Assembly: GCF_000212735.1 (NCBI RefSeq)
Contig: NC_015510.1
Location: 3,436,315 to 3,500,314 of the forward strand
Reading direction: 5' to 3'
Source of the DNA: Haliscomenobacter hydrossis DSM 1100
Lineage (GTDB): Bacteria; Bacteroidota; Bacteroidia; Chitinophagales; Saprospiraceae
Length of the DNA: 64,000 nucleotides
Shown here: in pieces, positions 26,199 to 44,329 of the stretch
How positions within the stretch are numbered: position 1 is the stretch's first letter
How the letters are laid out: every line of letters starts with the position of its first letter
Notes under the pieces: model-generated
What the model was told of the DNA's origin: nothing
Databases searched by the model: none
The model's input: only the letters and a program-made list of their open reading frames with translations
Made by a program: the position numbers and the translations under genes

Positions 26199-27788
26199 TC
26201 ATTCTTTTCTGAAAAATTGATAAAAAATCACCGCTTTACCTCCTGAACGCACCACCACCAAATATCTTCCGGCTACCAACTGGTTCAGATTTATTTTTTT
26301 AACATGTTTTCCAGCCAGTAAACCAGGGAAATCTTGCTTGACCATTTCTTTTTTCAAGGTATTGTACACACAAATTTGTACCTCTCCAGCCTGAGTAAGG
26401 TTAAAAGGAATACTCGCCTCATTGCTGAATGGATCTACCGAACAAGGAGCCAGTTTAGCCCATTCCTTGTCATTGGTAGCCGATTCAGCCACTTCTGCTG
26501 GACTCAGCGTAGGCGCTGCCGGACGGTTGTTTGTGGCGTTTTGGGCCAGCAAAGTTGTTTTTTTGTTGATGATCGTCAATACACTGCCATTGCTGGGTTC
26601 CCAAAGTTTGAGACCAATGGGCAATACAAAAGGGCTTTTGCTTTCCATGACGCCCTGATATTGATCGGAAATAACGGTACGCACTTCAATTTTTCCCTGT
26701 TCAACATAAATAAGGTTGAAGTGATTGAAGCTGCCACTGTTGCGGGTCCACTTTTTATTGTCATCGCTGTTCCGCAGGGGTGCTCCCCAACAACCTTCTC
26801 CCACATACACCGTGCCGCGTTCATCATCACGAATGAAGCCCTCCGCACTACCTATTTCTCTGGAGACCCGAATGGGGTATGTCCATTTGGCTACATGGCT
26901 ATCCGATTCCAGGGCGAGTTGTACCTGATGGTACAAAAACAATGGTGCCCAGTTTTGTACCAGGTCATCGCGTTCCGGTTTGCCAGTAGTATGAGGGCGC
27001 ATGGCATGGTGGTACTGGGCAAAACGCCAGGTGAAACCTTTGGCGCCATTCAATTCCCGTTCCAGCCAGGTTTTTTGGTCTCCACCGCTGGCCGCCATGG
27101 TATTGAGCGTAAGCAGCCGGAGTAAATTTCCGCCAAAACTCAAGGCGTAGTAGGCATCGGGATAAGGGATGTCAAAAATCTCTTGCAAACTGCGGTTGTC
27201 CATTTCATGGTTGCCCCGAGCCACTACGACTGGCGTAATGCGTCCATCACTACCGATGGTGTATTGCCAATCGTCGAGCCAAAGTAGCCATTCCGGGCCC
27301 GTATCGGTTGCAGTCATGTCGCCATTGAACAACACGAAATGAGGGCGTATTTTTGACACCAGCGTATTGGCGCTGATGCGGGCTTCGCGGTTGTTGCGAG
27401 AATCTCCCCCAGAGATGATCGACAAACGTTCGGTAGGAACGTTGGGAACGGTGCGAAAAGAATAACGCCTGCTGGATCCTTCGCTGTCTTTGACCACGAA
27501 AAAATAGACCGTATTGGGTTTGAGTCCACTGAGTCGGGCAAAATGATTGTTGAGTCCACGAGCCGTTACGACCTGATCGGGTTTACGCTTGAGTCTGTAG
27601 AGTTCCGTTTTTTGACCATTGTCGACTTCATCGTAGTAGATCATGGGGGTGGTTCCACTAAGCTGATCCCAGGCAATCACCATCGAAGTTGCAGGATCAT
27701 CGCGCCACATCGCACGAAAACGGGCAGTTTTAGCCTCCAGGGCAACAGCATTCAACAGTGCCAAAAAACAAACAACCAATCGGGTCAT
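26199..27788 (-). CDS. Exported purple-acid-phosphatase-like metallophosphoesterase with a C-terminal sorting domain
   Basis: A 529-aa secreted protein. The signal peptide MTRLVVCFLALLNAVALEA is followed by a fibronectin-like N-terminal domain (to about residue 115), as in purple acid phosphatases. The metallophosphoesterase core follows, with metal-binding motifs GGDSRNN, FNGDMTATD, RGNHEMDN, YHHAMR and a later SDSH. The last 85 residues (FNLTQAGEVQICVYN, LVAGRYLVVVRSGG) resemble a type A T9SS sorting domain, implying export through the type IX system. Likely releases phosphate from organic esters at the cell surface. The ATG at 27788 is chosen over an upstream TTG. Confidence 0.85.
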   Translation of the reverse strand: MTRLVVCFLALLNAVALEAKTARFRAMWRDDPATSMVIAWDQLSGTTPMIYYDEVDNGQKTELYRLKRKPDQVVTARGLNNHFARLSGLKPNTVYFFVVKDSEGSSRRYSFRTVPNVPTERLSIISGGDSRNNREARISANTLVSKIRPHFVLFNGDMTATDTGPEWLLWLDDWQYTIGSDGRITPVVVARGNHEMDNRSLQEIFDIPYPDAYYALSFGGNLLRLLTLNTMAASGGDQKTWLERELNGAKGFTWRFAQYHHAMRPHTTGKPERDDLVQNWAPLFLYHQVQLALESDSHVAKWTYPIRVSREIGSAEGFIRDDERGTVYVGEGCWGAPLRNSDDNKKWTRNSGSFNHFNLIYVEQGKIEVRTVISDQYQGVMESKSPFVLPIGLKLWEPSNGSVLTIINKKTTLLAQNATNNRPAAPTLSPAEVAESATNDKEWAKLAPCSVDPFSNEASIPFNLTQAGEVQICVYNTLKKEMVKQDFPGLLAGKHVKKINLNQLVAGRYLVVVRSGGKAVIFYQFFRKE

Positions 27789-27841
27789 AGACAATTATTT
27801 AAACAACACTACATTTCATCGCAATCAAAAGCGAAGATATT

Positions 27842-27849
27842 GTACTTTT
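27842..27849 (+). promoter_or_regulatory. -7 box upstream of glyA
   Basis: TACTTTTG matches TAnnTTTG and predicts a leader of about 30 bases before the glyA ATG at 27885. No TTG at the -33 spacing. Confidence 0.5.
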
Positions 27850-27884
27850 GCGCCTGAATATTCAAAGCGACAATTTATTGTACC

Positions 27885-29171
27885 ATGAAGGATACGGTAA
27901 TTTTTGATTTGATTCACGAAGAGTTGGATCGCCAACGGAAGGGAATAGAACTGATTGCTTCCGAAAACTTCACCAGCCAAGCAGTGCTCGATGCGATGGG
28001 TACCTGCCTTACCAACAAGTATGCTGAGGGTTACCCAGGCAAACGTTATTATGGTGGCTGTGAAGTTGTGGACAAAATTGAACAAATTGCCATCGACCGT
28101 TTGTGCACTTTGTTCGGGGCAGAATACGCCAACGTACAACCCCACTCTGGAGCACAGGCCAATGCAGCCGTTTTTCTGGCTTGCTTAACCCCTGGTGATC
28201 GGATACTGGGTTTCAACCTCGCACACGGCGGACACCTTTCGCACGGCTCTCCAGTGAACTATTCCGGGAAAGTGTACGAAGCCCATTTTTATGGGGTAGA
28301 GCAGGAAACTGGCCTAATTGACATGGACAAGGTAGAAGCTACCGCCTTGGAGGTGAATCCTAAACTGATCGTTTGTGGTGCTTCGGCGTATGCCCGCGAT
28401 TGGGATTACGCCCGCTTCCGCGCCATAGCCGATAAAGTTGGCGCACTGTTGTTGGCAGACATCGCGCACCCGGCAGGTTTGATTGCGGCAGGATTGCTCA
28501 ACAACCCGATGGATCATTGCCATATCGTTACGTCTACTACCCACAAAACCTTGCGTGGACCACGTGGAGGGATCATCATGATGGGTAAAAACTTTGATAA
28601 TCCTTGGGGTCGTGCGACCAAAAATGGTGAAAAAATCAAAATGTCGGCCATCCTCAACAGTGGGGTATTCCCAGGGATGCAAGGTGGCCCATTGGAGCAC
28701 GTCATTGCGGCCAAAGCCGTGGCTTTCCAGGAAGCCCTGCAACCCGAATTCAAGGAATATGGCATTCAAGTCATGAAAAATGCCCAGGTAATGGCCGATG
28801 CTTTTGTACAAAAAGGCTACAAAGTCATCTCTGGTGGTACCGACAACCACTTGATGTTGCTCGACCTGCGTTCGAAAAATGTAACGGGCAGAGATGCTGA
28901 AAATGCACTGGTCCGTGCCGACATCACCGTGAACAAAAACATGGTGCCCTTCGATACCCAATCACCAATGGTTACGTCGGGCATCCGGGTTGGTACTGCG
29001 GCCATCACCACCCGTGGCTTCAAAGAAGCGGATTGTTTAAAGGTAATTGACTGGATTGATACGATTCTTTCTGACGTTAAAAATGAAGGACTCATCATTG
29101 CTACCCGCAATGAGATCAATGCGTATATGGAAAACTTCCCCTTGTACGCTGAGCAAAACGTAATAGCCTAA
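27885..29171 (+). CDS. glyA: Serine hydroxymethyltransferase
   Basis: A 428-aa PLP enzyme interconverting serine and glycine with transfer of a one-carbon unit to tetrahydrofolate. The PLP lysine is in [13 protein letters not shown]. Other hallmarks are [25 protein letters not shown] and QPHSGAQAN. Full length with the normal C-terminus. It is followed by a palindromic spacer and then ddl on the same strand. Confidence 0.97.
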
Positions 29172-29173
29172 AA

Positions 29174-29281
29174 AGGTTCGAGGGTTCGGGAGATTGAGGG
29201 TTCGAGGGTTGCACAAAATCCTGTCCCGAACCCTCGAACATCGAACCCTCAAACCCTCGAACCCTCAAACCCTCAAACCTT
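29174..29281. repeat. Intergenic palindrome, TTCG-word type
   Basis: Left part (29174-29210) made of GGTTCG-like words and right part (29226-29281) made of CGAACCCT/CAAACCCT words, between glyA and ddl. Several registers of pairing are possible. It lacks the conserved GC-rich core. Confidence 0.7.
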
Positions 29282-29288
29282 AAAAGCC

Positions 29289-30278
29289 ATGTTAAAAGTA
29301 GCCATCCTCACCGGCGGAAACGTCGCCGAGCGCAGTGTATCCCTCAAAAGTGCAGAAACGGTACGCAAACACCTGAACGATCAAAAGTACGAGAAGTACG
29401 TGATCGAACTCAACGGCACGCAGTTTACGGAGCAAGGTACAGGCACGGTGGTCAACCTCAATGATTTCAGCTTGCCAACGCCGAATGGCAACATCAAATT
29501 CGATTTGGTGTACCAGATGTTGCACGGGCATCCGGCTGAAGATGGTTGTTTGCAGGGTTACTTTGAAGTGTTGGGCATTCCCTACACAGGCTGCGATGTG
29601 ATGTCTAGCGCCATTACATTCAACAAACAGGCCTGTAAGGATTTCTTGCGCAGCCATAACATCCCCATGGCACCATCCAAAGTGCTGCGCAAGGGCGAGG
29701 CCATCAACTGGGCCGAGCTGGAAGCCATGGGCGTTCCCGTGTTTGTCAAACCCAACAAAAATGGCAGTAGTTACGGTGCCTCCAAAGTCAACACCCCCGA
29801 TCAATTGGCAGGTGCCATTGAGCACGCTTTTGTCTACGACGATGAAGTAGTGGTAGAAGGTTTCCTCAAAGGAACCGAGTTTTCGAATGGCGTCCTGCGC
29901 CGCAATGGCGAAGTAGTGGTGCTGCCCATCACCGAAATTGTGCCCCACAACGAGTTTTTTGATTTCAAAGCCAAATACGAAAACCAAAGCCAGGAGATCA
30001 CTCCGGCACGATTGACTCCCGAGCAAACCGCCCAGGTACAAGCCCAAACCAAATTGATTTACGAAGCCGTTGGCTGCCGGGGCATTTGTCGCTTTGACTA
30101 CATCCTGGTAGGGGACACCTTCTTCTTCCTCGAAGCCAATACGATTCCGGGCATGTCCGAACAAAGCATTGTGCCCCAACAAGCACGTGCCCACGGTTGG
30201 AGCATCACCGAATTGCTGGATGCAGCGGTGGATGAGGCTTTGGAAAGACAGGCGATGAAGTTGAGTGTGGGGAATTGA
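29289..30278 (+). CDS. ddl: D-alanine--D-alanine ligase
   Basis: A 329-aa ATP-grasp enzyme that makes the D-Ala-D-Ala dipeptide for peptidoglycan. Hallmarks: the N-terminal GGNVAERSVSLKSAE, the glycine/ATP loop KPNKNGSSYGASKV, then GICRFDYILVGD and the metal-binding FLEANTIPGMSEQSIVPQQA. The specificity tyrosine is present in SSYG. Length is normal. It follows glyA after a palindromic spacer. Confidence 0.96.
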   Translation: MLKVAILTGGNVAERSVSLKSAETVRKHLNDQKYEKYVIELNGTQFTEQGTGTVVNLNDFSLPTPNGNIKFDLVYQMLHGHPAEDGCLQGYFEVLGIPYTGCDVMSSAITFNKQACKDFLRSHNIPMAPSKVLRKGEAINWAELEAMGVPVFVKPNKNGSSYGASKVNTPDQLAGAIEHAFVYDDEVVVEGFLKGTEFSNGVLRRNGEVVVLPITEIVPHNEFFDFKAKYENQSQEITPARLTPEQTAQVQAQTKLIYEAVGCRGICRFDYILVGDTFFFLEANTIPGMSEQSIVPQQARAHGWSITELLDAAVDEALERQAMKLSVGN

Positions 30279-30592
30279 GGCAGCCCACCGCCCCTACAAA
30301 ATCCCCTAAATGTAAAATACTTTACTTTTATTTGATCTTTTGTGATCCTTATTTGACTCCTAGTCACTATTTTCACAGCGAGATAACCACGTTGCGTCTT
30401 CAATTTCAGTTGCCAATGGCGACAATCTACCTCTATTTGAGATAATCCCAACATCTCCAAAAAATTCAGCATGGTCTAACAGATGTTAGGTCTGAGTAAT
30501 TCCGCCCTTGGAATCAAGGTATACTTGTTCCAATAGAACCGCTGTATCACATCTGGTTTTGAACCGTTTTACTTACTTCTACATTGCTCAAT
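30279..30592. other. Spacer between ddl and the CHAT gene
   Basis: 314 bp of AT-rich DNA. No credible ORF, hairpin with T-tract or repeat family member was recognised. TACATTGC at 30582-30589 is close to but not a match for the -7 consensus. Confidence 0.4.
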
Positions 30593-33478
30593 ATGAGGAG
30601 GCTACACTTTTTTGGGTTGTGGGTGCTTGTTGGAATTTTGTCGATCTATGGGTGTCGAGAAAAAATACCTTCATGGTCTAATTTGATCAAAGACCATGCT
30701 CATACGTCAGAGCTTAACGCTTCATTTCAAGAAGCATTCTCTCTAAGGTACAAACGCGATTACCCTGCGGCGGCGCGCGCATTTGAAACCGGGTTGAAAG
30801 ACAACACCATTGGGCAAAGCACTCAAATTGATGTCCTGAATCAGTTGGGATTCATTTATTTGGAGATGAGTGATACCACTGCCGCCATACCGCTGTTGGA
30901 TAAACTAGCCAAGCTTGAGTCAGATTTTAATTCGTTTCAACGGGCGGATTATTGGTACAATCTAGGCGTGTTGAATTTGCAGCGGATCAAACCGGATGAA
31001 GCTAAAAAAAACCTGGAGGATGCCTTGCGTATGTATGAAGCCAAATACCCCAGAGGGCATCTGCGCATTGCCTTAACCAACACCAAGTTGGCACTGCATC
31101 AAGTCGATTTTGGGCTCAAAGCACCGGAAGTGAACAATAGCATCAGAACTGCCTTCAGCAGCTTTTATTTTGCCAACGACCAGGACTCTACGCTATTTCC
31201 TTATGCAGAAGAAGTCAATTATCTCATGGCACAATATTATCGGATGGTGCCCAGAGATTATGGTGCAGGCCTCAACCATTGCCAATTAGTTGAAAAGTTA
31301 ATAGCACGGGCTCCTTGGAAAGATACCGCATTATTGGCTAGAAGCCTGGGGGTAAAAGGCTTGTTTTTAAAGAAAAAAGGTAGGTATCATGAGGCAGACT
31401 CTACGATTAAAAAAGGGCTTCAACTTTTACAAAAGCAAGGAAAAAACTCAATTTTTATTCAGGAAATGTACCGTTTTTTGATGGCCAATGCAGCGGGAAG
31501 GGCTAATGTTGATACAGAGACAAAAGCTCAAGGCGAAAAATTATACTTTTTTTATTTGACCGAATTCCGAGCTCATCAAAAAAGTACCAACCAATCTGAG
31601 ATTTATATTCAAACCGATGAATTGTATGCTTATTACTGCTTTTATCGGCTTGATGAAAAGAAGCAGGATTGTTTAGAGGCAACGGAGTTGTTCCTTAAAA
31701 AGATTAAGCGGGATATGCCTATTTACCGCTACTACAATGAAGAGGCCTACAACTTTTTGACCTCTCTTGAAATTAAAAACAAAAATTATGACAAGGCCCT
31801 AACACATCAGCTAACTTCTTTCAAAACCGAAATTGATGCTGTAAAGGCGGGTAAAATAAACAATTGGTCTGATGCCATCAAACCCGCGAATGCAAATCTC
31901 AGGGTAAATCCTTTTTTCGCGTTTAGCGGAGCTGGTAAGATTTATTTGGCAAAATTCAATAAAGAAAATAAGGTCGAGGACCTGGCATTTGCGCTAAAAC
32001 TCTTTGAGATTGCCGATGACATGATGAGTTTAGGGCTAACCATGAATGAAGAAGGTGTGCTATCTTACCATCAGGAAATGGGAGATGATATCTACACAGT
32101 AGCCCTTGAGGCCGCTCATCTTGCCTATACCCTTTCCGATCGCCATCCAGATGTATTGGTTAAAGAAAAAATCTTAGACTTAGCATTCCGTTTTATCGAG
32201 CGCCAAAAATCTTATATTCTTTTTAGAGAAGACCTATTCTTTGACCCTAACACCCAATATTTCATTAGTAAAATAAAAGAAGTAGCAACTGACATAACTA
32301 CACTACGGGAAGACAGCACAAATATGAATAGTATACTGAGCTTGGTTAAAGCCAATTTTGAATATGATAGGCTCTTGAATAAACTTTTTAAGCGTTCAAT
32401 TGAAAATTTCAAGCAGAAAATTCCAAAAGTTACCGAGATTCGTTCTCGATTAAAAAAAGATGAAGTACTGGTACAATATAAAGTGTTTAAAGACCAGGTC
32501 TACGTGCTAAGCATTGGCAAAAAGCAAGTTTATTTTGACACGGTAGGCCACATTGCAAAACTTCAAAAGTATGTCGCTCAATTCGAAAAATTGGTTAGTT
32601 CAGAAAATCAACACCAGTTTAATTACGCTGGATTAGATAGTGCAAGAGTCGTTTATGACCTGCTAATCAAGCCAATTGAAAAGACTTTTCCGTCGAAGAA
32701 TGCAGTGCTGATCGTCATACCTGATCGTTTTTTGACGGACTTACCTTTTGATGCTCTGCCCATTCAATTGGATACAACTGTCAAAGACTGGCGCAATGTC
32801 AAGTATTTACTCCTAAAGCATTATGTTGTTTATGCTCCCTCCTGGAAAATATGGCAACAAAATCGATATGCCCGTGTTTCCAGTTCTGCGTACCGCGCAG
32901 CGTTTTTTTCATATACTACAAAAGAAGGTCAAATTCCTGCATTGGCATTAGAGGGGGCAAAAGCTGAGAAGGATGCATTGGCTGATTTTGCACAGGTCAA
33001 AGTATTTAAGAACGGAACTTGTACGGCTGCAAAATTCCGTCAATGTGCATATCGATTTAAAATATTGCACTTTTGCTTGCATGGCGAGAGCAATCCTTTA
33101 AAGTTAGATGCGAATCAAATTTTCTTCCAGATCAATAATGACCAAAAAATTGACCCGTTGAGTGGGAGCCAAATCTCCAACTTAGATCTAAGAGGTAAGT
33201 GGGCAATCATTTCTGCTTGTGAAACGGGCATCGGACAGACCAATTCCGAGGGAACCTACTCATTATCCCGAGCATTTTTACAAGCAGGTTGCGCCTTTAC
33301 CATCTCGTCATTGTGGGAAATAAACGATAAATCTACCACTGACATTTTGGTTAATTTTTATAAGCAATTAGAACCCAATGATTGTCCATGGATTGAATTG
33401 GCAAAAGCCAAACGCCAATTTGTCGAAATGCACAATTATCCCCCCTACAATTGGTCAGGATTAATCCCCACTATATAA
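30593..33478 (+). CDS. Lipoprotein with TPR array and C-terminal CHAT (caspase-like) protease domain
   Basis: A 961-aa protein. The N-terminus has a lipoprotein signal (VGILSIYGC, lipid cysteine near residue 22), so the protein is probably membrane-tethered outside the cytoplasm. Residues 45-560 are helical with TPR-like repeats (YWYNLGVLNLQRIKPDEA). The CHAT domain spans about residues 610-955, with the catalytic dyad H830 (LHFCLHGES) and C876 (IISACETGIG) intact. The end, NWSGLIPTI, is shorter than the usual W-A-G-F tail. CHAT proteases are caspase relatives; some are activated through TPR partners. It converges on a subtilase gene, the two stops separated by 3 bp. The ATG at 30593 is chosen by the lipobox. 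Confidence 0.88.
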   Translation: MRRLHFFGLWVLVGILSIYGCREKIPSWSNLIKDHAHTSELNASFQEAFSLRYKRDYPAAARAFETGLKDNTIGQSTQIDVLNQLGFIYLEMSDTTAAIPLLDKLAKLESDFNSFQRADYWYNLGVLNLQRIKPDEAKKNLEDALRMYEAKYPRGHLRIALTNTKLALHQVDFGLKAPEVNNSIRTAFSSFYFANDQDSTLFPYAEEVNYLMAQYYRMVPRDYGAGLNHCQLVEKLIARAPWKDTALLARSLGVKGLFLKKKGRYHEADSTIKKGLQLLQKQGKNSIFIQEMYRFLMANAAGRANVDTETKAQGEKLYFFYLTEFRAHQKSTNQSEIYIQTDELYAYYCFYRLDEKKQDCLEATELFLKKIKRDMPIYRYYNEEAYNFLTSLEIKNKNYDKALTHQLTSFKTEIDAVKAGKINNWSDAIKPANANLRVNPFFAFSGAGKIYLAKFNKENKVEDLAFALKLFEIADDMMSLGLTMNEEGVLSYHQEMGDDIYTVALEAAHLAYTLSDRHPDVLVKEKILDLAFRFIERQKSYILFREDLFFDPNTQYFISKIKEVATDITTLREDSTNMNSILSLVKANFEYDRLLNKLFKRSIENFKQKIPKVTEIRSRLKKDEVLVQYKVFKDQVYVLSIGKKQVYFDTVGHIAKLQKYVAQFEKLVSSENQHQFNYAGLDSARVVYDLLIKPIEKTFPSKNAVLIVIPDRFLTDLPFDALPIQLDTTVKDWRNVKYLLLKHYVVYAPSWKIWQQNRYARVSSSAYRAAFFSYTTKEGQIPALALEGAKAEKDALADFAQVKVFKNGTCTAAKFRQCAYRFKILHFCLHGESNPLKLDANQIFFQINNDQKIDPLSGSQISNLDLRGKWAIISACETGIGQTNSEGTYSLSRAFLQAGCAFTISSLWEINDKSTTDILVNFYKQLEPNDCPWIELAKAKRQFVEMHNYPPYNWSGLIPTI

Positions 33479-33481
33479 AAA

Positions 33482-34741
33482 TCACCTAATCAGGTTAAAA
33501 CAATTCAAGCGACCACTACCCAATGGAACTGAAGTTGCAATATAGTCAGCTTTAGATTTAAGGTGATTTTTAATACTGCCAACGGGCGTTTTTCCATGTT
33601 TAGCAAGATATAGTGCAATAGCTCCGGATACGTGGGCGGCGGCCATTGAAGTTCCACTTTGAGTGACTACACCATTGTTTGCACCAATTTGTAGCGATAG
33701 AATCTCAAATCCAGGAGCAGCAACCGTGATCTCATTCCCCCAATTAGAACCTGGGGCTTTGCCGTCATTTTGATCCGTAGAAGCCACAACGATGAGTTCG
33801 GGGTGCAAGGCAATCCAGTAGTTGCGGACATTTTCATTTTTATTTCCAGCTGCAAATACACAAACCACACCTTTTTGCAAAGCATAATTAATGGCTTGTA
33901 GCAGGGTAGTGTCGCTAGGAATACGTTCATCGTAGGCCCAGCTGTTGTTGATGACCTGTGCGCCATGATCTACAGCGAATTTGATGGCGTTGGCAAGGAT
34001 ATTGGAGTTTGACGTACGGCCAGAAAAAGCCTTCACTGGCATTATTTTGGCCTCGGGCGCAACGCCAATTACGCCCTGGCTATTGTTTCCAACTGCGGCA
34101 ATGATCCCAGCAACATGGGTCCCGTGTCCAAAAGTATCACTTAGGTCATTATTGTTGTCTACAAAATTATAGCCAATGATGTCGCGGTTGCTATTTTTGC
34201 GGGCGAGATTGCGCGATACATCCACGTGCTTGGCGTTGATACCTGAATCAACAACCGCTACGATTACCCCTTTACCTTTGGAAATATTCCAGGCTTTTTC
34301 ACATTCAACCTTTTTTAGCCCATACAAACTACTGAATTGAGGTTCGTTGGGTGTCCAACTGAGGCGGTAGGTCTGGTTCAGTTCGGCAAATTCTACATCA
34401 GGATTGCGCTTCAAAGTTTCCAGGATTTTTTCAGTCCCTCCATCTTGAGCATTTATTGTATCCTCCGAAAGTTCCAGTTGCCATATTTCGTAGAGCTTTT
34501 TCTCCTCTTTTTCCATCGCATTGTAAGCATCCAGAAAAAGCTCTTCGTTTGGTTTATCCCCTCGATCAGTAATCTTTTGCTTGTCGAGGTATTCTTCTAC
34601 TGCCTGTTCTTCATTGAGCACTCTTTTGAGTGTTCCTGTATCAGATCGATCGCGGGTTTTGACCGCAGTGTCCACAATGCTTTGGAGTTCCTCTTGTGAC
34701 ACTTGCTTTTTTAGTCCAAAATTGATGGTAGCCATATTCAT
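33482..34741 (-). CDS. Subtilisin-type (S8) serine protease
   Basis: A 419-aa protease with the full catalytic set: D165 (VAVVDSGIN), H206 (FGHGTHVAG), oxyanion N300 (FAAGNKNEN) and S365 (SGTSMAAAHVSG). An N-terminal prodomain-like part ends with VEFAELNQTYRL, as in I9 inhibitors, preceded by an unusual charged helical region (residues 15-90). No signal peptide is seen, so it may be cytoplasmic or leave by another route. It is the last gene of the minus-strand run sigma, anti-sigma, unknown protein, subtilase, and meets the CHAT gene tail to tail. A second ATG at 34735 is possible. Confidence 0.92.
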   Translation of the reverse strand: MNMATINFGLKKQVSQEELQSIVDTAVKTRDRSDTGTLKRVLNEEQAVEEYLDKQKITDRGDKPNEELFLDAYNAMEKEEKKLYEIWQLELSEDTINAQDGGTEKILETLKRNPDVEFAELNQTYRLSWTPNEPQFSSLYGLKKVECEKAWNISKGKGVIVAVVDSGINAKHVDVSRNLARKNSNRDIIGYNFVDNNNDLSDTFGHGTHVAGIIAAVGNNSQGVIGVAPEAKIMPVKAFSGRTSNSNILANAIKFAVDHGAQVINNSWAYDERIPSDTTLLQAINYALQKGVVCVFAAGNKNENVRNYWIALHPELIVVASTDQNDGKAPGSNWGNEITVAAPGFEILSLQIGANNGVVTQSGTSMAAAHVSGAIALYLAKHGKTPVGSIKNHLKSKADYIATSVPLGSGRLNCFNLIR

Positions 34742-34765
34742 TAAGCTTTACAATTTGAAAAACTA

Positions 34766-35686
34766 CTAACTCAAAAGATCAGTTCGCAGCGGTTGATACG
34801 TAACTCCAGAATATTCGAAAATATCGTATTCCAATGGAATAGTATGGTCATTGCCGATACGTGCAAAGTTGGTAAACCTCATTTGCAGCTCATCACAAAA
34901 GTAGGTACGTTGATAAATACCGATGTAGAATTTAGATTCCATACCTGGATTAGCAGTCAATGCATCCAAGTAGAGCTTCCGATCCTGGTGCCAAACTTTC
35001 AACACTTCCTCAGCGGTTTCTCGGGCACACTCATCGCTATCTAAAAAACGATTAGGAATTTTGTACCACCAAATAGACATATCCGCAGAAAGCATCGGAA
35101 TCAGGTAATTATTGAATTTCACCTCATATTGCAGCGACGCATCGGTGCGGTATATTTTGTCTTCATCTTTAAGGTAAAAAAGCAAAAAATTATCGTCTTC
35201 TGGAAAAGTCATTGATTTCAAGCAATTACTTCCAGCTGTTGTTGCGGAAGCATCCGCACCATCGGCATCGGCATCGCAAGGGTGTTCTGTTGCCGGCGAT
35301 AGAGAAGTATTGCCCTCTAATGTGAGGTTGAGTAAAACTTTTTCGAAAACGAAATTGATTTTCTCTGCTCCAGTTTTTGGTATTGCACTGGTAGCAGGAG
35401 GAATAATCGTTATTTCTTGTGTATTCGGATCAATTCGGTATTCAACAAATTCTAAAAGGTCTGGAACAAACCAAAATGCTTCCTCAAAATTGTAGTTGCC
35501 TTGCTGCAATTGCAAGTCTCTGCTTTGGAAGGAATACCGAATGTCTTCAGTGCTGTCTCCAAACTGAATAGGCTGCAAGTAATGAGGTTTCTGATCACGC
35601 AGCGTGATTTCTCTAGAAGCTTCTGGAAAACTAAGGCTTCCCTGTTTTCTTTGCTTCCAAACTCCGGGCTTTGGACTGGATGGCAT
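34766..35686 (-). CDS. Unrecognised 306-aa protein in the protease-sigma operon
   Basis: I recognise no family. The protein lacks a signal peptide and membrane helices, is rich in aromatic residues, and has an alanine/aspartate-rich low-complexity patch (DADADGADASATTAG) flanked by cysteines near the middle. The C-terminal half contains cysteines in SDECARE and RTYFCDELQMR. It lies 24 bp upstream of the subtilase gene on the same strand and 85 bp after the anti-sigma gene. A role as substrate, inhibitor or partner of the neighbouring proteases is only a guess from position. Confidence 0.6.
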   Translation of the reverse strand: MPSSPKPGVWKQRKQGSLSFPEASREITLRDQKPHYLQPIQFGDSTEDIRYSFQSRDLQLQQGNYNFEEAFWFVPDLLEFVEYRIDPNTQEITIIPPATSAIPKTGAEKINFVFEKVLLNLTLEGNTSLSPATEHPCDADADGADASATTAGSNCLKSMTFPEDDNFLLFYLKDEDKIYRTDASLQYEVKFNNYLIPMLSADMSIWWYKIPNRFLDSDECARETAEEVLKVWHQDRKLYLDALTANPGMESKFYIGIYQRTYFCDELQMRFTNFARIGNDHTIPLEYDIFEYSGVTYQPLRTDLLS

Positions 35687-35771
35687 ATTCCTCTTGATTT
35701 ATTCAATGAAATCAAATTACATCTCTGTATGGATGGAATGCTTAAAACGTTAGGGAAAATAGGAGTTTTTT

Positions 35772-36500
35772 TTATTTATTTTCAATTTTATTTAACAAGA
35801 TTCGGGCATTCTTTTGCTCCAAATGGTCTTCTTCCTCAAGAATAGCCAGCAATATTTCTTTGCTCTCCTCCCTATTCCCAGCTAAAAACAAGCTTGCCGC
35901 AAGGTACAATTCTGCTCTTTGATAATCATTGTACCCTAAGGTGATAAGTTCTTTAAAAACGATTTGTGCTTCTTTTAACTCTCCTGCTTTTAATGAAGCT
36001 ACTGCATAGTTATAGCGCAGTTGCAAATCTGTTTTATTCTGTTGATATTCAGCATTGAATAGTTCAGCGGACGAAAGGAATTCTCCGGCAAAAAACATTT
36101 GTTCGGCTTTTGATCGCAGTGCGCCTTTAGATCCTTTCGGATTGAGTTCTATTTCAAAACCTAAGTTGAGGGCTTCTTTTGATTGGTGTGTTTGCCAATT
36201 AAGCGTCACCCAAACCAAAGTCACAATCAGTATTGCCAGAGTAGCCGCAATAGACAGAATAGTCCGAAAAAATAGCTTTTTAGAAGGCGCAGGTACAGCC
36301 TCTACCAATGCTTTGACCCTTGCCCTATTTGGGTCAGCTTGTTCAAGCACACGAATCAACTTGGCATATGATTTGGCTTCTGCATAAAAAGCCTGATCTT
36401 CTTTTAATTTGCGTTTCAAGGCTTTTGCCTCTGCTCCGGTTAAAGTTCCTTTGAGGAACGATTCCAGGTTTTCTAGTTCTTGTGGTTCAATTGCCATCAT
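35772..36500 (-). CDS. Anti-sigma-like membrane protein with C-terminal TPRs
   Basis: A 242-aa single-pass protein. Residues 1-70 are helical and acidic (ELENLESFLKGTLTGAEAKA), like the cytoplasmic sigma-binding part of anti-sigma factors but without zinc ligands. A transmembrane helix spans about 77-100 (FFRTILSIAATLAILIVTLV). The remainder forms TPR-like repeats (LRYNYAVASLKAGELKEAQI), placed outside the cytoplasm. It starts 9 bp after the sigma gene on the same strand, strongly suggesting it controls that sigma factor. The external TPRs would be natural docking sites for a TPR-CHAT protease. Confidence 0.78.
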   Translation of the reverse strand: MMAIEPQELENLESFLKGTLTGAEAKALKRKLKEDQAFYAEAKSYAKLIRVLEQADPNRARVKALVEAVPAPSKKLFFRTILSIAATLAILIVTLVWVTLNWQTHQSKEALNLGFEIELNPKGSKGALRSKAEQMFFAGEFLSSAELFNAEYQQNKTDLQLRYNYAVASLKAGELKEAQIVFKELITLGYNDYQRAELYLAASLFLAGNREESKEILLAILEEEDHLEQKNARILLNKIENK

Positions 36501-36509
36501 TTTTGTTTT

Positions 36510-37061
36510 TTAAAGTCCCATTAATTTCCTCAGCTTTTCGATGCAGGCAAATTTTCGTTGCCGACAGTTGCCTTCGTTACGTAAGTCTGGCATTATTTCT
36601 AATATTTCTAAACAGCTTAAATCTTCCCAATAATATAGTTTCAGCAATTTTTGACACACTGGTGATAAGTCATGAAGGTTATTTGATAATTGTTGGATCA
36701 AGACCAATTTTTCATCATCTGGCTCATCACTATCTTCTTCTGCAAGATCAAACAAATCTGAAAATTCCTTGCATGCTTCTCTTTTTCGAAAAAACTCTAA
36801 CCATTTATTAGCACCAATACCAGCAATATAGGCACTGATGGTTGAGGTCAGTATTTTAGTTCCCCCATTTTTCATCTTTCGAGAGAACACAATCATGGTT
36901 TCCTGAAATACATCATTAATGTCCTCATGATTAACCTCTCCCCTTTTTTTCGCATTTGAGAAGAAAGGCCCAATGTTTTCCACTATAATAATCTCCAAAG
37001 CTCTATTAAATTGCTCGTCGTCACCAGAATCCAGCATTCGAATGAGGTCATCTTGCTCCAT
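36510..37061 (-). CDS. ECF-like sigma factor of the protease island
   Basis: A 183-aa sigma-70 family protein. Region 2 is recognisable (HEDINDVFQETMIVFSRKM, then AYIAGIGANKWLEFFRKRE). Region 4 is divergent but still carries the helix-turn-helix pattern (PVCQKLLKLYYWEDLSCLEI). It differs strongly from the other ECF factor in this window. It has its own -7 box (TATATTTG at 37104-37111) overlapped by a 27-bp palindrome, and leads the run anti-sigma, unknown, subtilase. Likely autoregulated; targets unknown. Confidence 0.85.
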   Translation of the reverse strand: MEQDDLIRMLDSGDDEQFNRALEIIIVENIGPFFSNAKKRGEVNHEDINDVFQETMIVFSRKMKNGGTKILTSTISAYIAGIGANKWLEFFRKREACKEFSDLFDLAEEDSDEPDDEKLVLIQQLSNNLHDLSPVCQKLLKLYYWEDLSCLEILEIMPDLRNEGNCRQRKFACIEKLRKLMGL

Positions 37062-37089
37062 ATACCTAACTGATTATTGGGCGAAACTT

Positions 37090-37116
37090 AAATGTATACT
37101 TTGCAAATATACATTT
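37090..37116. promoter_or_regulatory. Operator-like palindrome over the sigma promoter
   Basis: AAATGTATA (37090-37098) and TATACATTT (37108-37116) are perfect 9-bp arms around CTTTGCAAA. A further related half-site, TGTACATTT, follows at 37122-37130. The minus-strand -7 box lies inside, so a bound protein would block or position RNA polymerase. Confidence 0.65.
37104..37111 (-). promoter_or_regulatory. -7 box of the protease-island sigma gene
   Basis: Minus strand reads TATATTTG, a full TAnnTTTG match, about 43 bases before the sigma ATG at 37061. A TTG lies 23 bases further upstream, slightly beyond the usual spacing. Confidence 0.6.
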
Positions 37117-37129
37117 ACACATGTACATT

Positions 37130-37489
37130 TCACCCAATTGAATCAGAATTCTGCTGGCGTTTAGTTTTAGGTGGGGGGTAAATGTTGAACAGCCCTTCAG
37201 TGGCATCTGTTCCAGCGTAACCAATGGCGATTATGGCGACGATGTTGTTGCCGATCAACGGTTCATCGGGGGCTTGTTGGATCAGGAGTAAGCTCAAACA
37301 ACCGATCACCAACCCAATGAAGAGACCAATCAATAATCGACGGAAATCTAGTTCTTTGCTCAGGGTAGATTCTTTCGAGGCGGCGATCTGAACGGTTTTG
37401 CGCAAACCAATTAACGTTCTAATGGATTGACCCAATAGCCCCAATATACCACCCATTGCGATCAGGGGTAAATAATCCAATGCTATCAT
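37130..37489 (-). CDS. Small membrane protein upstream of the sigma gene
   Basis: A 119-aa protein with about three hydrophobic stretches (LPLIAMGGILGLLGQSI, LLIGLFIGLVIGCLSLLLI, NIVAIIAIGYAGTDATEG) and a polar tail with IYPPPKTKRQ. It is not a recognised family, although similar small membrane proteins seem to sit near CHAT genes (recollection, not checked). The ATG at 37489 is chosen because a -7 box at 37577-37584 puts the transcript start near 37571, downstream of an in-frame start at 37579. Its stop lies 68 bp before the sigma ATG. Confidence 0.6.
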   Translation of the reverse strand: MIALDYLPLIAMGGILGLLGQSIRTLIGLRKTVQIAASKESTLSKELDFRRLLIGLFIGLVIGCLSLLLIQQAPDEPLIGNNIVAIIAIGYAGTDATEGLFNIYPPPKTKRQQNSDSIG

Positions 37490-37576
37490 TCTTTTGCTAT
37501 TTAAATTCTGGCCACGGCTTGGACGATATACTGGTTCACTAATTATAGGTTGTTTGTTAAGGATGCAATTAAAACC

Positions 37577-37584
37577 CAAAAGTA
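37577..37584 (-). promoter_or_regulatory. -7 box upstream of the small membrane protein
   Basis: Minus strand reads TACTTTTG. It predicts a leader of about 80 bases before the ATG at 37489 and excludes the longer frame. Confidence 0.45.
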
Positions 37585-37813
37585 TCTCTGCACGTAATTT
37601 AAGGGTAATAATATTGCATCCAAGCCAATGGTCAGCAAAAATGAATAAATAATTCAGGGTTCAGTCTACTTAGGACCGGAGTACACAATTTTTCTGGACA
37701 CATACTGACGTGTTCATTCCCTCTGTGATTATTAAGTGAAAAAGTTGAACTGTCAAGTATATATGACGGAAGTGGAGAAAACGTTAGGAGAAAATTCAAA
37801 AAATATTTTGTTT

Positions 37814-38824
37814 CTAATCATTCTTATCTTTTTCTTCATCAAACACCTCCCCCTCAAACTCCGTCTTCACCGCCTGCGCATTGTACCCCTGCTCTGTCAA
37901 CCACTTGCTAAATTGCTCCGTGTACCCATGCGTGGCGATGATATTTTCAGCGCCTGTAGCGGCAATCGCCCGATTCAATTCGTCCCAATCGGCGTGGTCG
38001 CTGAGGATGAAGCCCCGATCGGCCTTGCGCTGGAGGTATGCATCTCTAATGGCCATCCAACCCGAGGCAATGCCCAACGATGAAGGGGTAAAACGCCGCA
38101 CCCAGGGTGCATCCACAGCTGAAGGTGGCGCAATGATGATGCCTCCGGCAATTTGATTTTTTTTGGTGTTTTGCGCCAGGCGACTTGATTTGGGCAGGGG
38201 TATGCCTTGGGCACGCAATACTTCATTGACGTTTTCTACCGCCCCGTGGGTAAAGATGGGACCTATATCAGGGTTCAATCCCTGCATGATGCGCTGGGCT
38301 TTGCCAAGGGCATAACCAGTTAGTACCGTGATTTTTCCTTCCGACTGGTTTTGAATCCACCAGGCATTGATGTCGGTAAAAACCTGTGCCTGGGGTTGCC
38401 ATTTGTACAGGGGCAAGCCAAAAGTGCATTCCGTGATAAAAGTATGGCAAGGAATGGATTCGAAAGCTTCAGCCAGTCCGTCGTTTTCGAGTTTGTAATC
38501 GCCGGAAGCCACCCAGATTTCGCCCTGGTATTCTACCCGAATTTGGGCCGAGCCGACGATGTGTCCGGCGGGATGGAAGGAAAAGCGCACCCCGTTGATC
38601 AGGCGGGATTCACCGTAGTCTACAGTTTCAATGTTGATGGGGCCTAAACGATGGCGAATGACGGGTCGAGCGCTGCGGGTACACAAATAATAATCGTGTC
38701 CTGGGCGAGCGTGGTCGCCGTGCCCATGGGTGATTAAAGCACGTTTGACGGGTTTCCATGGGTCGATGTAAACGTCGGCCTGGGCACAATAGATTCCACG
38801 ATCGGTAAATTCGAGCAGGGCCAC
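37814..38824 (-). CDS. Ligase-associated DNA exonuclease (metallo-beta-lactamase fold)
   Basis: A 336-aa metal-dependent nuclease of the MBL/beta-CASP-like type usually encoded beside ATP-dependent DNA ligase and an Lhr-type helicase. Metal ligands are in THGHGDHARPGH, then HPAGHIVGS, SGDYK and SDHADWDEL. It starts with GTG, whose G is the last base of the porD stop, so translation is coupled. The ligase and helicase partners are not adjacent in this window, which is unusual for this family. Confidence 0.88.
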   Translation of the reverse strand: MALLEFTDRGIYCAQADVYIDPWKPVKRALITHGHGDHARPGHDYYLCTRSARPVIRHRLGPINIETVDYGESRLINGVRFSFHPAGHIVGSAQIRVEYQGEIWVASGDYKLENDGLAEAFESIPCHTFITECTFGLPLYKWQPQAQVFTDINAWWIQNQSEGKITVLTGYALGKAQRIMQGLNPDIGPIFTHGAVENVNEVLRAQGIPLPKSSRLAQNTKKNQIAGGIIIAPPSAVDAPWVRRFTPSSLGIASGWMAIRDAYLQRKADRGFILSDHADWDELNRAIAATGAENIIATHGYTEQFSKWLTEQGYNAQAVKTEFEGEVFDEEKDKND

Positions 38825-39753
38825 TATTGCCGCAATTGCCGATAATTGTTGGCGTTGGTAGGGTCAATCCGCGACATCACGTCGGCCACCCGGTCTTTTT
38901 CATCGGGCGTACCCATGCGGAAAATCTCCATAATTTCCTTCGATTTTGCCGAAAGAAACAATTGCATTAGAATGGTATTCGGGTAGGTATCAAAGGACTT
39001 GCGGGCGTTTTCGAGGGTCTTGGAGATGATCGAACGCCCTTTGGCCGGGTCTTGCGACATTTGGTCCAACCCCAAACGGTGATACACGTATTGGAGTTCA
39101 CGCATGGGTTTCATTCTTGGGGACAGCCAGTTTTCAACGATCCAGAAGCGGTTGCGGTTGTTGCCTTCGATGGAGCTCCAGCCGCGGCCTTGTACTGCTG
39201 CGGCACTTTGGGCAACGTTGACGATGTTTTGGGCTGCCTGAAAATGGTCAGACCCACCATTCAAGGCAAAAGAATCGTAATCCATGCCCAAAATGATGTG
39301 GATGTAAAAAGCCACGACCTGCGAGAGGTTATCGTTAAAAAGGGTTTTGCTGAACTGGAGGGGTTGAAACTGCTCGTATTTAAAAGTGATTTCGCGGTCA
39401 ATAAAGTTGAACAAGGTTGTTTCCTTACTGCTGCCGAAAATCGGACGAGACGCCTGAATGGCCAATTCCGCCGTGTAAACGTTGGGGATGGTTTTTTGGC
39501 TTTTATCGGTTGCCTCTCCATTGATGGTCAGCAGGATATTGCCTTTGATGCGCTCTTCAGGGCGAAACTCGTCTTCCGTCCACTTGCTGCTGTTGACAAA
39601 TTCTTTGAGCGATTGTTCCAGGCCATTGAATACAGCTGGATCAGCGGTAAGCAAACGTTGAATGTTGACTTTAACCGTAAAATTGAGTTCTTGAGCAGAG
39701 AGCACAGATAGCCCGGAAACCAGCAAGATGATGAGGATAAAAAACTTTCGCAT
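38824..39753 (-). CDS. porD: PorD-like T9SS-associated protein (DUF4835)
   Basis: A 309-aa exported protein with a signal peptide (FFILIILLVSGLSVLSA) and the DUF4835 pattern (ELNFTVKVNIQRLL at the mature start, FIDREITFKYEQFQPLQF, MDYDSFALNGGSDHFQ). PorD is required for type IX secretion in Porphyromonas, with an unclear mechanical role. The gene order bamD, rpoZ, coaBC, porD is widespread in Bacteroidota. The ATG at 39753 is preferred to a TTG at 39765. Confidence 0.88.
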   Translation of the reverse strand: MRKFFILIILLVSGLSVLSAQELNFTVKVNIQRLLTADPAVFNGLEQSLKEFVNSSKWTEDEFRPEERIKGNILLTINGEATDKSQKTIPNVYTAELAIQASRPIFGSSKETTLFNFIDREITFKYEQFQPLQFSKTLFNDNLSQVVAFYIHIILGMDYDSFALNGGSDHFQAAQNIVNVAQSAAAVQGRGWSSIEGNNRNRFWIVENWLSPRMKPMRELQYVYHRLGLDQMSQDPAKGRSIISKTLENARKSFDTYPNTILMQLFLSAKSKEIMEIFRMGTPDEKDRVADVMSRIDPTNANNYRQLRQ

Positions 39754-39765
39754 AGCATTAGCCAA

Positions 39766-40959
39766 TTAAACCTTGAACAAATCGATCATTGCCTGGAGAA
39801 TGTCCTCCGCTACGGCATGTTTTGACTTTAACTCAAAATCGCGTTTCTTATTGTCCCTGAAAAGGATACTGATTTTATTGGTATCGTGGTTAAAACCGGC
39901 ACCCGAATCGCGCAGGGAATTCAATACGATGAAGTCGAAGTTCTTTCTTTCCAGTTTGCCCTGGGCGTGTTGTTCTTCATCGTTGGTTTCCAGGGCAAAC
40001 CCGATCAAGAACTGCCCCGGTTTCTTCATTTGACCCAAATCCGCAGCGATGTCCGGGTTTTTGACCAAATCGAGCTGCAACTCCTCCCCTTTTTTCTTGA
40101 TCTTTTCGGTGGCGACTGTTTTGGGGCGGTAATCAGCTACCGCAGCAGCCAAAATGGCCGCATCAAACTGGGGATAGTGCAGCAAAGCTGCCTCATGCAT
40201 TTCACGAGCCGTTTCTACGTTGATGACCCGTACATTTTTTTCTTGCGGGCTTAGTTTTGAGGGACCGAGTACAAGCGTCACTTCAGCTCCACGGCGTGCG
40301 GCGGCATCGGCCAGCGCTATGCCCATTTTGCCCGATGAGCGATTGCCGATAAAGCGCACTGGATCGATGGGTTCGTAAGTGGGGCCAGCGGTGAGCAGGA
40401 TTTTTTTACCCTTGAGGTCTTGACTTTGGGTGAAAAATTGCTCCAGGTAGGCCACAATTTCTTCGGGTTCGGCCATACGCCCTTCACCGGAAAGCCCACT
40501 GGCCAGTTCGCCTACGCCCACGGGGATCAAATGATTGCCATATCCTTGCAAACGTTGCACATTGTTGCGGCTGGCCGGATGGTGCCACATATCGAGATCC
40601 ATCGCTGGCGCAAAAAATACCGGGCAGCGCGCCGAAAGGTAGGCGGCCACCAGAATATTGTCACAAATGCCGTTGGCCAGCTTGGCGAGCGTAGTTGCGG
40701 TTACAGGAGCAATCACCATAACATCGGCCCATAAGCCTAGCTCAACGTGGTTGTTCCAGCCCGATTCCGAACTCACTTCACTGAAAACTGGCCGCTTGGA
40801 AAGGGTAGAAAGGGTAAGTGGCGTGATAAAGGACTGCGCCGAAGGCGTCATCAGAATTTGTACCTCTGCTCCAGCTTTGATGAGAAGGCGGGTGAGTATC
40901 GCCGATTTGTAAGCAGCAATACTGCCGGAGATGCCGAGGATGATTTTTTTGCCTTGCAT
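39766..40959 (-). CDS. coaBC: Bifunctional phosphopantothenoylcysteine decarboxylase / phosphopantothenate-cysteine ligase
   Basis: A 397-aa two-domain enzyme of coenzyme A synthesis. The CoaC half (residues 1-185) binds FMN: GISGSIAAYKSAIL, PATATTLAKLANG-like APVTATTLAKLANG, and PAMDLDMWHHPASRNN with the active His. The CoaB half contains LLTAGPTYEPIDPVRFIGN, SGKMGIALADAAARRG, AAVADYRPK and KIKKKG. Length and motifs are standard. It lies between rpoZ and porD. Confidence 0.95.
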   Translation of the reverse strand: MQGKKIILGISGSIAAYKSAILTRLLIKAGAEVQILMTPSAQSFITPLTLSTLSKRPVFSEVSSESGWNNHVELGLWADVMVIAPVTATTLAKLANGICDNILVAAYLSARCPVFFAPAMDLDMWHHPASRNNVQRLQGYGNHLIPVGVGELASGLSGEGRMAEPEEIVAYLEQFFTQSQDLKGKKILLTAGPTYEPIDPVRFIGNRSSGKMGIALADAAARRGAEVTLVLGPSKLSPQEKNVRVINVETAREMHEAALLHYPQFDAAILAAAVADYRPKTVATEKIKKKGEELQLDLVKNPDIAADLGQMKKPGQFLIGFALETNDEEQHAQGKLERKNFDFIVLNSLRDSGAGFNHDTNKISILFRDNKKRDFELKSKHAVAEDILQAMIDLFKV

Positions 40960-40963
40960 TTAA

Positions 40964-41077
40964 ATTAAAAGTGAAAAATGAAAAATGAAAAATAGCATAC
41001 CATTGTTCGCTAAGCGTATAATTACGCAAATGCAACATGGTGTATTATTTTTCATTTTTCACTTTTAATTTTTCATT
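40964..41077. repeat. Intergenic palindrome, TGAAAAA-word type
   Basis: Left arm 40964-40994 and right arm 41043-41077 share a 23-bp inverted match made of TGAAAAA words. The 48-base middle contains a smaller CCAT/ATGG stem. It separates rpoZ from coaBC and overlaps the rpoZ stop. Confidence 0.75.
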
Positions 41078-43508: not shown

Positions 43509-44228
43509 ATGGACAAGCCTACTTATAAGGAACTTTTGGATGCCGGCGTTCACTTCGGCCACCTCAAGAAAAAGTGGAACCCCAAAATGTCTCCATACAT
43601 CTTCATGGAGCGCAAAGGTATCCACATCATTGATTTGAACCGTACCCTTGATGCACTGGATCGTGCAGCCAACGCCATGCGTCAAATGGCCAAGAGCGGT
43701 AAAAAAATCATGTTTGTTGCCACCAAAAAACAAGCTCGCGATATCGTATCTGAAGCAGCAAAAACGGTAGGAATGCCCTTCATCGCCGACCGTTGGTTGG
43801 GGGGTATGATGACCAACTTTGCAACCATTCGCCGTTCGGTGAAGAAAATGCAAAACATCGACCGCATGCTGGCGGATGGTACATTGACCAGTGTGACCAA
43901 AAAAGAACGTTTGACGCTAACCCGCGAACGGGACAAACTGGACAAAGTATTGGGTGGTATTGCCAACCTGAATCGTTTGCCTGCGGCCATTTTTGTGGTT
44001 GACATCTCTCACGAACACATTGCCATCGCAGAAGCGCATAAACTGGGTATCCGTACTTTCGGTATCGTAGACACCAACTCTGACCCAAATCAGGTTGACT
44101 ACGCCATCCCTGGTAACGACGATGCTTCTAAATCCGTAAAAATCATCACTGATTATATGGTAGAAGCCATCCGCCAAGGTTTGGAAGAACGCAAAGCGGT
44201 TAAAGCTGAAAAGGAAGCGGTACGCTAG
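43509..44228 (+). CDS. rpsB: 30S ribosomal protein S2
   Basis: A 239-aa ribosomal protein of the 30S head-body junction. Signature segments: AGVHFGHLKKKWNPKMSPYI, FVATKKQARDIV, DRWLGGMMTNFATIRRSVKK and VVDISHEHIAIAEAHKLGI, then the nucleotide-like IPGNDDASKSV. Length is typical. It is followed by a palindromic spacer and tsf, the classic S2-EF-Ts order. Confidence 0.97.
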   Translation: MDKPTYKELLDAGVHFGHLKKKWNPKMSPYIFMERKGIHIIDLNRTLDALDRAANAMRQMAKSGKKIMFVATKKQARDIVSEAAKTVGMPFIADRWLGGMMTNFATIRRSVKKMQNIDRMLADGTLTSVTKKERLTLTRERDKLDKVLGGIANLNRLPAAIFVVDISHEHIAIAEAHKLGIRTFGIVDTNSDPNQVDYAIPGNDDASKSVKIITDYMVEAIRQGLEERKAVKAEKEAVR

Positions 44229-44329
44229 GAGGGTTCGAAGGTTTGAGGGTTCGTGAGTTCAAAGGTTCGAGGGTTTTGCCCGCACCATCAAACTTACGAA
44301 CCCCCGAACTCACGAACCCCCGAACCCTA
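44229..44329. repeat. Intergenic palindrome, TTCG-word type, between rpsB and tsf
   Basis: Left half is built of GGTTCG/GGTTTG words, right half of CGAACCCC words; matches include GTTCGTGAGTTC against GAACTCACGAAC. It starts right at the rpsB stop and could attenuate or terminate part of the transcription into tsf. Confidence 0.75.

Follow-up and report, generated by a model that had tools for sequence, protein, structure and literature searches.

A recurrent sigma, anti-sigma and TPR-CHAT protease module with an exchangeable cargo slot at a Haliscomenobacter hydrossis locus

The locus described here lies in a 64,000-nucleotide stretch of the Haliscomenobacter hydrossis DSM 1100 genome (the window; all coordinates are window positions) and comprises five genes that pair a CHAT protease with a sigma factor and its putative membrane inhibitor. 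The plus strand carries the gene of a likely lipoprotein that joins tetratricopeptide repeats (TPRs) to a CHAT domain (30593–33478, with an alternative TTG start at 30584). The minus strand carries, in order of transcription, an ECF-like (extracytoplasmic function) sigma factor (36510–37061), an anti-sigma-like protein (35772–36500), a fast-evolving protein of 306 residues that we call X (34766–35686) and a subtilase (33482–34741), with gaps of 9, 85 and 24 bp. The CHAT gene is convergent with this four-gene run and ends 3 bp from the stop codon of the subtilase; lying on the opposite strand, it is therefore outside that operon. A small membrane protein encoded upstream of the sigma gene (37130–37579), counted as a member in the preliminary description, falls outside the five-gene set. 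It has no blastp copy in the own-genome and family module loci, and its lone relative in 120 family genomes is found on a contig of 12.4 kb, in which neither a sigma nor a CHAT gene was recognised by eye.

The five genes themselves are real, as had been proposed, and both proteases have their catalytic residues. The CHAT domain matches PF12770 (E 4.2e-36) with 125.3 bits against a gathering score of 24, accompanied by TPR matches. Its His/Cys dyad is formed by H833 and C879 (numbered from the TTG at 30584), with codons at 33080 and 33218. Both residues are aligned in 55 of 55 CHAT matches with the C-terminal domain; the alignment used the last 450 residues only, a stretch on which 4 further matches could not be judged. 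The subtilase (PF00082, E 2.3e-54) has the triad D165, H206 and S365, with codons at 34249, 34126 and 33649, respectively. The sigma factor scores 40.3 bits with TIGR02937 (E 2.4e-10; cut-off 42.9) and 12.8 and 11.9 bits with the Pfam r2 and r4 models (about 24). The anti-sigma-like protein is predicted to have an inner N-terminus, one membrane span (36263–36207) and outer TPRs (TPR_19, E 1e-4). An AF2 model has a predicted local distance difference test score (pLDDT) of 81–94 for most of residues 151–240 and low values elsewhere. Searching solved structures by sequence gave none for the CHAT protein and only designed pentatricopeptide repeats for the anti-sigma-like protein; no RNA family matched at gathering score.

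Topology was assigned by simple hydropathy rules, with no dedicated signal-peptide program. An N-terminal hydrophobic segment is predicted in 66 of 71 full-length CHAT proteins and a C-terminal span in 28 of the 71. Of 54 module anti-sigmas, 47 have exactly one span, and the side N-terminal to the span carries the greater positive charge in 35 of 42. The predicted topology fits a protease outside the cytoplasm that faces the outer TPRs of the anti-sigma. No N-terminal hydrophobic segment was found in eight X proteins or in the subtilases of the window, L167 and L169 (L numbers designate loci); X and the subtilase, which thus lack an export signal, are unlikely to share the compartment of the CHAT protein. 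Two other proteins encoded in the same position, those of L109 and L182, look lipoprotein-like.

Relatives of the window sigma (E ≤ 0.001) occur in 213 of 246 family genomes in a single-protein search. We examined every locus that this search returned outside the own genome, 29 in all and each the best of its genome by sigma score, and found a CHAT gene within 2.8 kb in 20 of the 29. Starting from CHAT genes instead, a sigma and anti-sigma pair lies beside 8 of 14 family loci chosen by CHAT score (L167, L169–L173, L175 and L176). These 14 are the top of the CHAT list minus L114, L105 and L123, which entered for other reasons; L114 and L105 have the sigma pair, and L123 is cut. In other families of the order, the pair adjoins CHAT in 9 of 20 genomes, with one CHAT gene taken from each (L233, L234, L237, L242, L243, L245, L246, L248 and L249; family codes f11, f12, f17 and f20). 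The 20 genomes follow the Pfam CHAT score in near-order; G366 was skipped, and the lower-ranked G248 was added for a further family. Neighbouring genes were labelled with profiles for sigma, anti-sigma and CHAT. The seeds of these profiles were own-genome cassettes selected for the co-location of their genes, and the profiles were then iterated over the loci examined. ECF sigmas of any kind can be expected to match the iterated sigma profile; loci were chosen with single proteins or Pfam alone. Open reading frames (ORFs) were called mechanically, and the sigma of L196, missed by the ORF list, was recovered in a six-frame search. Judged by sequence, the sigma factor, the single-pass anti-sigma with outer TPRs and the exported TPR-CHAT protein are a recurrent module. 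The gene set of the preliminary description thus recurs in part, and the lack of recurrence that would have refuted that description is not observed: the trio is found again in the family and order samples and the subtilase beside CHAT in three further loci (L167, L169 and L123). The six genes do not form a unit if the small membrane protein is counted among them.

It is very improbable that the locus is a sigma operon with an unrelated CHAT gene as a chance neighbour. Chance would be helped by the abundance of both kinds of gene in the own genome, which has 55 Pfam sigma matches, 51 of them chromosomal (PF04542), and 26 CHAT-like matches. The linkage counts above argue against it, as does a control within the own genome, where 6 of 9 window-type sigmas (found with the single protein, the window's included) have one of 12 strong CHAT genes no more than 5 kb away. 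Only 3 of the 51 chromosomal PF04542 sigmas lie within 6 kb of a strong CHAT gene, and all three are among those six; the Pfam sigma model misses the other 3 of the six, the window's among them. The 14 weak own-genome CHAT matches (L013–L026) may include some caspase-like proteins. Another own-genome cassette (L034:4203-10593) has a sigma and a one-span anti-sigma on one strand and, on the other, CHAT and a subtilase-like gene whose 578-residue product is 26% identical to the window subtilase.

The position occupied by X and the subtilase is a slot for exchangeable cargo in one group of modules. In a FastTree tree of 48 module CHAT proteins, which has long branches and a midpoint root, 15 of the 48, including the window's, form one side of the drawn root with a support of 94 (inner sets of 12 and 10 rows, 99 and 98). 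All 15 are laid out as sigma, anti-sigma, one to three further same-strand genes and a convergent CHAT. Among the other 33 rows, slot genes are found in 3 (L136, L237 and L246); the count of cargo is confined to modules with CHAT downstream. By path, the nearest row to the window CHAT is that of L169, of the same genus, whose slot holds a 301-residue protein and a subtilase, but this join consists of long branches and the program warns that it may be false. By identity, the CHAT of L167 comes closest (27%); the slot of that locus contains a subtilase and a 278-residue protein. L123 is a 4.8-kb contig on which CHAT and subtilase lie tail to tail. We rejected the subtilase as a fixed part of the module, as only 1 of 14 loci chosen by subtilase similarity has an adjoining CHAT. 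A second kind of small slot protein is encoded at L108:8209-8917, L105:8147-8608 and L115:11213-11815, and looks beta-barrel- or OB-like by eye only.

The preliminary description had called X an unknown protein, which holds in so far as X has no known domain (no match in Pfam, PADLOC, NCBIfam or PHROGs). X is no orphan. That impression came from single-sequence searches, which found X in the own genome only (1 of 248 genomes) and nowhere in a GTDB contig scan, and it was overturned by profile searches. A C-terminal pattern of X is common to the slot proteins of L167, L170, L171 and L172, and a profile of these four matches the window X with P 8.6e-6 and a probability of 83%. The five-member profile finds 8 loci in 246 genomes, the five training loci and three new ones, which were identified by profile before their neighbourhoods were opened. 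All 8 loci have the frame of sigma, anti-sigma, X and CHAT (L196 with the sigma from the six-frame search). In leave-one-out profiles searched against 1212 ORFs, every member ranks next after the training rows. The window X has E 2e-6, with the best non-member at 0.25 in the same run and at 0.0088–0.44 across the eight runs. Identity within the family is 16–28%. That X accounts for every slot protein is not supported: the slot proteins of L169, L114 and L173 have no significant profile match and that of L175 is marginal, which implies at least two slot families. A fold for X from a single-sequence model (pLDDT 31.6) was unusable, and solved structures searched by sequence gave only weak matches (E 0.12 or worse). 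Looking for a mobile origin, we found no X in phage records; plasmid records gave two cyanobacterial ones with distant CHAT matches.

Pairs of protease and substrate of the caspase/gasdermin kind are known, and X or a pro-subtilase could be the substrate that CHAT cuts, with the sigma pair merely regulating the locus. The cargo genes lie between anti-sigma and CHAT in all 15 modules of the tree group and X diverges fast, both of which favour this reading. The export signals predicted in CHAT proteins, with none in X or in the three complete subtilases, speak against it, as do the many modules with an empty slot; we consider cleavage of the cargo by CHAT unlikely.

The history of the site bears on a further reading, that of an anti-phage or suicide island in which an infected cell would be killed or arrested by the subtilase and X. 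The five module genes have a guanine plus cytosine content of 0.37–0.44, below the 0.49–0.53 of four flanking genes. The left (80–92% identity) and right (54–81%) flank genes are present in each of four further genomes of the genus, where they lie on different contigs with other neighbours on their module-facing sides; no CHAT gene was found in the eight flank stretches read from these four genomes. The module is therefore accessory and sits at a rearrangement point; the site history would fit gain in the own genome as well as loss in the others. Near the left flank gene, L267 has another sigma and anti-sigma pair with no CHAT in the stretch read. Both the composition and the separated flanks would suit a defence island, and the window subtilase matches the PADLOC subtilase model (E 1.4e-29) and IetS (4.3e-9). 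These matches instead reflect the peptidase fold: the IetS equivalog scores 28.4 bits against 900, and none of the five genes encodes an ATPase, so that the locus is not assigned to IetAS. PADLOC matches only the two subtilases among ten other slot proteins, and the trio is widespread without a subtilase. An anti-phage role is accordingly quite improbable in our view.

The reading we prefer, to which we give about an even chance, is that the locus encodes a sigma switch that spans the envelope, here in a form with cargo, and that CHAT frees the sigma factor via the outer TPRs of the anti-sigma. The sigma would be held at the inner membrane by the single-pass anti-sigma, whose inner end would bind it and whose outer end is the predicted TPR domain. 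The exported TPR-CHAT cysteine protease would engage this outer domain. Upon an outside cue that activates CHAT, the anti-sigma would be cut or displaced and the sigma freed. The operon would carry X and the subtilase as its payload, which would act inside the cell. We infer the contact, the cleavage, the direction of the signal, the sigma targets and the role of the payload from the genes, their catalytic residues, the predicted topology, the recurrence and the fixed order in one CHAT group, which are read from the sequences themselves.

Covariation was calculated for 48 of the 56 sigma rows with CHAT, with short, duplicate and doubtful rows dropped. Distances of all module parts correlate over the 48 modules. 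With the sigma controlled for, the outer part of the anti-sigma correlates with the CHAT domain with a partial r of 0.289 (reached in 0 of 1000 shuffles) and the inner part with 0.102 (54 of 1000). With the CHAT domain controlled for, the sigma correlates with the inner part with 0.244 (0 of 1000) and with the outer part with 0.126 (31 of 1000). Both orderings hold together in 88% of 70% subsamples and are strongest in the 25 convergent modules. This lends modest support to a contact between CHAT and the anti-sigma in modules of the convergent kind.

Several results weigh against the switch. Covariation of the CHAT TPRs with the anti-sigma, a check envisaged in the preliminary description, does not tell the two anti-sigma parts apart: the TPR region of CHAT covaries alike with the inner and outer parts (0.258 and 0.255), and both orderings reverse in the 23 non-convergent modules. 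Anti-sigma models match the window anti-sigma-like protein with E 0.0044 and 0.013, none past its cut-off, and 7 of the 54 module anti-sigmas have no span by the hydropathy rule that was applied to all. Linkage is incomplete from each side. Nine of the 29 sigma loci have no counted CHAT: six lack it (L100, L103, L104, L113, L116 and L133; a weak CHAT match inside a 1751-residue protein of L104 was left uncounted) and three are cut contigs (L181, L184 and L185). There is no sigma pair at 6 of the 14 CHAT-chosen loci (L168, L174 and L177–L180) or at 11 of the 20 order-level CHAT genes, 5 of these 11 being near contig ends (L235, L236, L239, L240 and L247). The single CHAT among the 14 subtilase-chosen loci, some of them on short contigs, belongs here too, as most subtilases of this kind are located elsewhere. 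Finally, a bipartite motif shared between the sigma and CHAT upstream regions scores 9.94 of 11 bases in true pairs and 9.79 in mismatched ones, and the score of the true pairs was reached by 133 of 2000 permutations. We therefore rejected a common promoter motif, for which 33 modules show no clear excess; the test is a weak one.

The same weak test is relevant to the reverse order of events, in which the outer TPRs of the anti-sigma sense the cue and CHAT, together with the cargo, is the output of the sigma as an exported effector protease. Many ECF sigmas control neighbouring effectors, which favours this order. CHAT lies on the strand opposite the sigma in 46 of the 56 sigma rows (29 convergent, 17 divergent) and is therefore a separate transcription unit, which also counts in favour. 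A motif common to the sigma and CHAT upstream regions would have strengthened this reading, but the weak test gave no clear one. Contact, and not only regulation, is suggested by the correlation between the CHAT domain and the outer anti-sigma part, subject to the exceptions in the TPR region and the non-convergent modules. We regard the reverse order as rather unlikely.

The switch, as we prefer to read the locus, has partial counterparts among known systems. RseA/DegS and RsiW systems have a single-pass anti-sigma with an outer part and a protease outside. The module is like them in its single-pass anti-sigma with an outer part and its predicted outside protease. It is unlike them in that the protease is a CHAT cysteine protease whose gene is a module partner and in that the outer part consists of TPRs. 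RseA/DegS and RsiW are named as cases of regulated proteolysis of membrane anti-sigmas in an account of the type III-E CRISPR (clustered regularly interspaced short palindromic repeats) Craspase (PMC10028731). The logic of Craspase is the nearest known to that of the module: Csx29 cuts Csx30, and Csx30 restrains CASP-sigma (PMC10028731). Both cases combine, in one locus, an ECF-type sigma with its inhibitor and a TPR-CHAT protease, and the window CHAT and sigma match type III-E models weakly (E 1.7e-10 and 4.5e-4). They are not assigned to that system, as the CHAT protein scores 40.4 bits against 300 with the Csx29 model and the sigma 20.2 bits against 100 with the type III-E sigma model. As the preliminary description had stated, CRISPR is absent from the locus: no spaced array was found among repeats of at least 20 nucleotides in 22000–46000. 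Nor was Cas7-11 found beside the genes, the longest listed ORF in 27000–41000 (964 residues) being the CHAT gene. Unlike Craspase, the window CHAT is predicted to be exported, the inhibitor spans the membrane with outer TPRs, and there is no sign of an RNA trigger.

Two caspase-related arrangements are further partial counterparts. Metacaspase operons with sigma-70 genes are described in Myxococcus and others (PMC3501461), and there, as here, a caspase-fold protease adjoins a sigma gene. They differ in that the proteases are metacaspases and the organisms belong to other groups; section 13 of that account describes neither an anti-sigma with outer TPRs nor a cargo slot. The account credits H. 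hydrossis with 28 metacaspases. EACC2-caspase neighbourhoods carry an ECF sigma and a DUF1822 TPR gene (PMC8195603), which likewise brings together a caspase-fold protein, an ECF sigma, a TPR protein and a variable part. In EACC2, caspase protein and variable part form a fusion, and the passages on these neighbourhoods describe no exported CHAT or membrane anti-sigma. Literature searches linking CHAT with sigma or anti-sigma factors returned Craspase, other CRISPR work and unrelated titles; an account of the module was not found among the titles listed, though one may exist. Searches combining the family name with ECF found none in the mostly openly available literature.

More broadly and more tentatively, the modules may represent a CRISPR-free class of envelope-spanning sigma switches in which an exported CHAT protease is the dedicated partner of a membrane anti-sigma with TPRs. 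The class would be present in multiple copies in each genome across the order, and one group of it would have a slot for payload genes that are exchangeable and evolve fast. The type III-E system would then be one variant of a more general CHAT/sigma logic, cytoplasmic and triggered by RNA; we consider this possible, at somewhat less than even odds. The recurrent trio with its exchangeable extra gene suggests a little-known route from an outside signal to gene expression. If so, caspase-family proteases would control transcription from outside the cytoplasm, without CRISPR, in a large bacterial group. The CHAT protein would be an outside-facing counterpart to Csx29, and the abundance of CHAT genes in these genomes would be explained in part. 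A defined set of natural candidate substrates would also become available for testing CHAT specificity. The X family marks a quickly changing slot, as a conflict or recognition part would.

A motif of the LFAxYFEPYP kind just after the span of the anti-sigma, on its outer side (e.g., L101, L106 and L137), is a possible recognition site. The strict pattern is found in 15 of 54 CHAT-linked anti-sigmas, 1 of 6 without CHAT and 4% of random stretches; 2 of the 6 CHAT-less proteins have little or no outer stretch, and the window anti-sigma is without the motif. As a cut site, this outer juxtamembrane motif is only a lead.

Two repeat features lie outside the five genes. At 29173–29288 and 44222–44327, 15 kb apart, there are arrays of an 8-bp unit (GGTTCGAG-like, with its complement) that are capable of forming hairpins. 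A perfect 25-nucleotide inverted repeat has its arms at 40962–40986 and 41047–41071, with 60 nucleotides between them.

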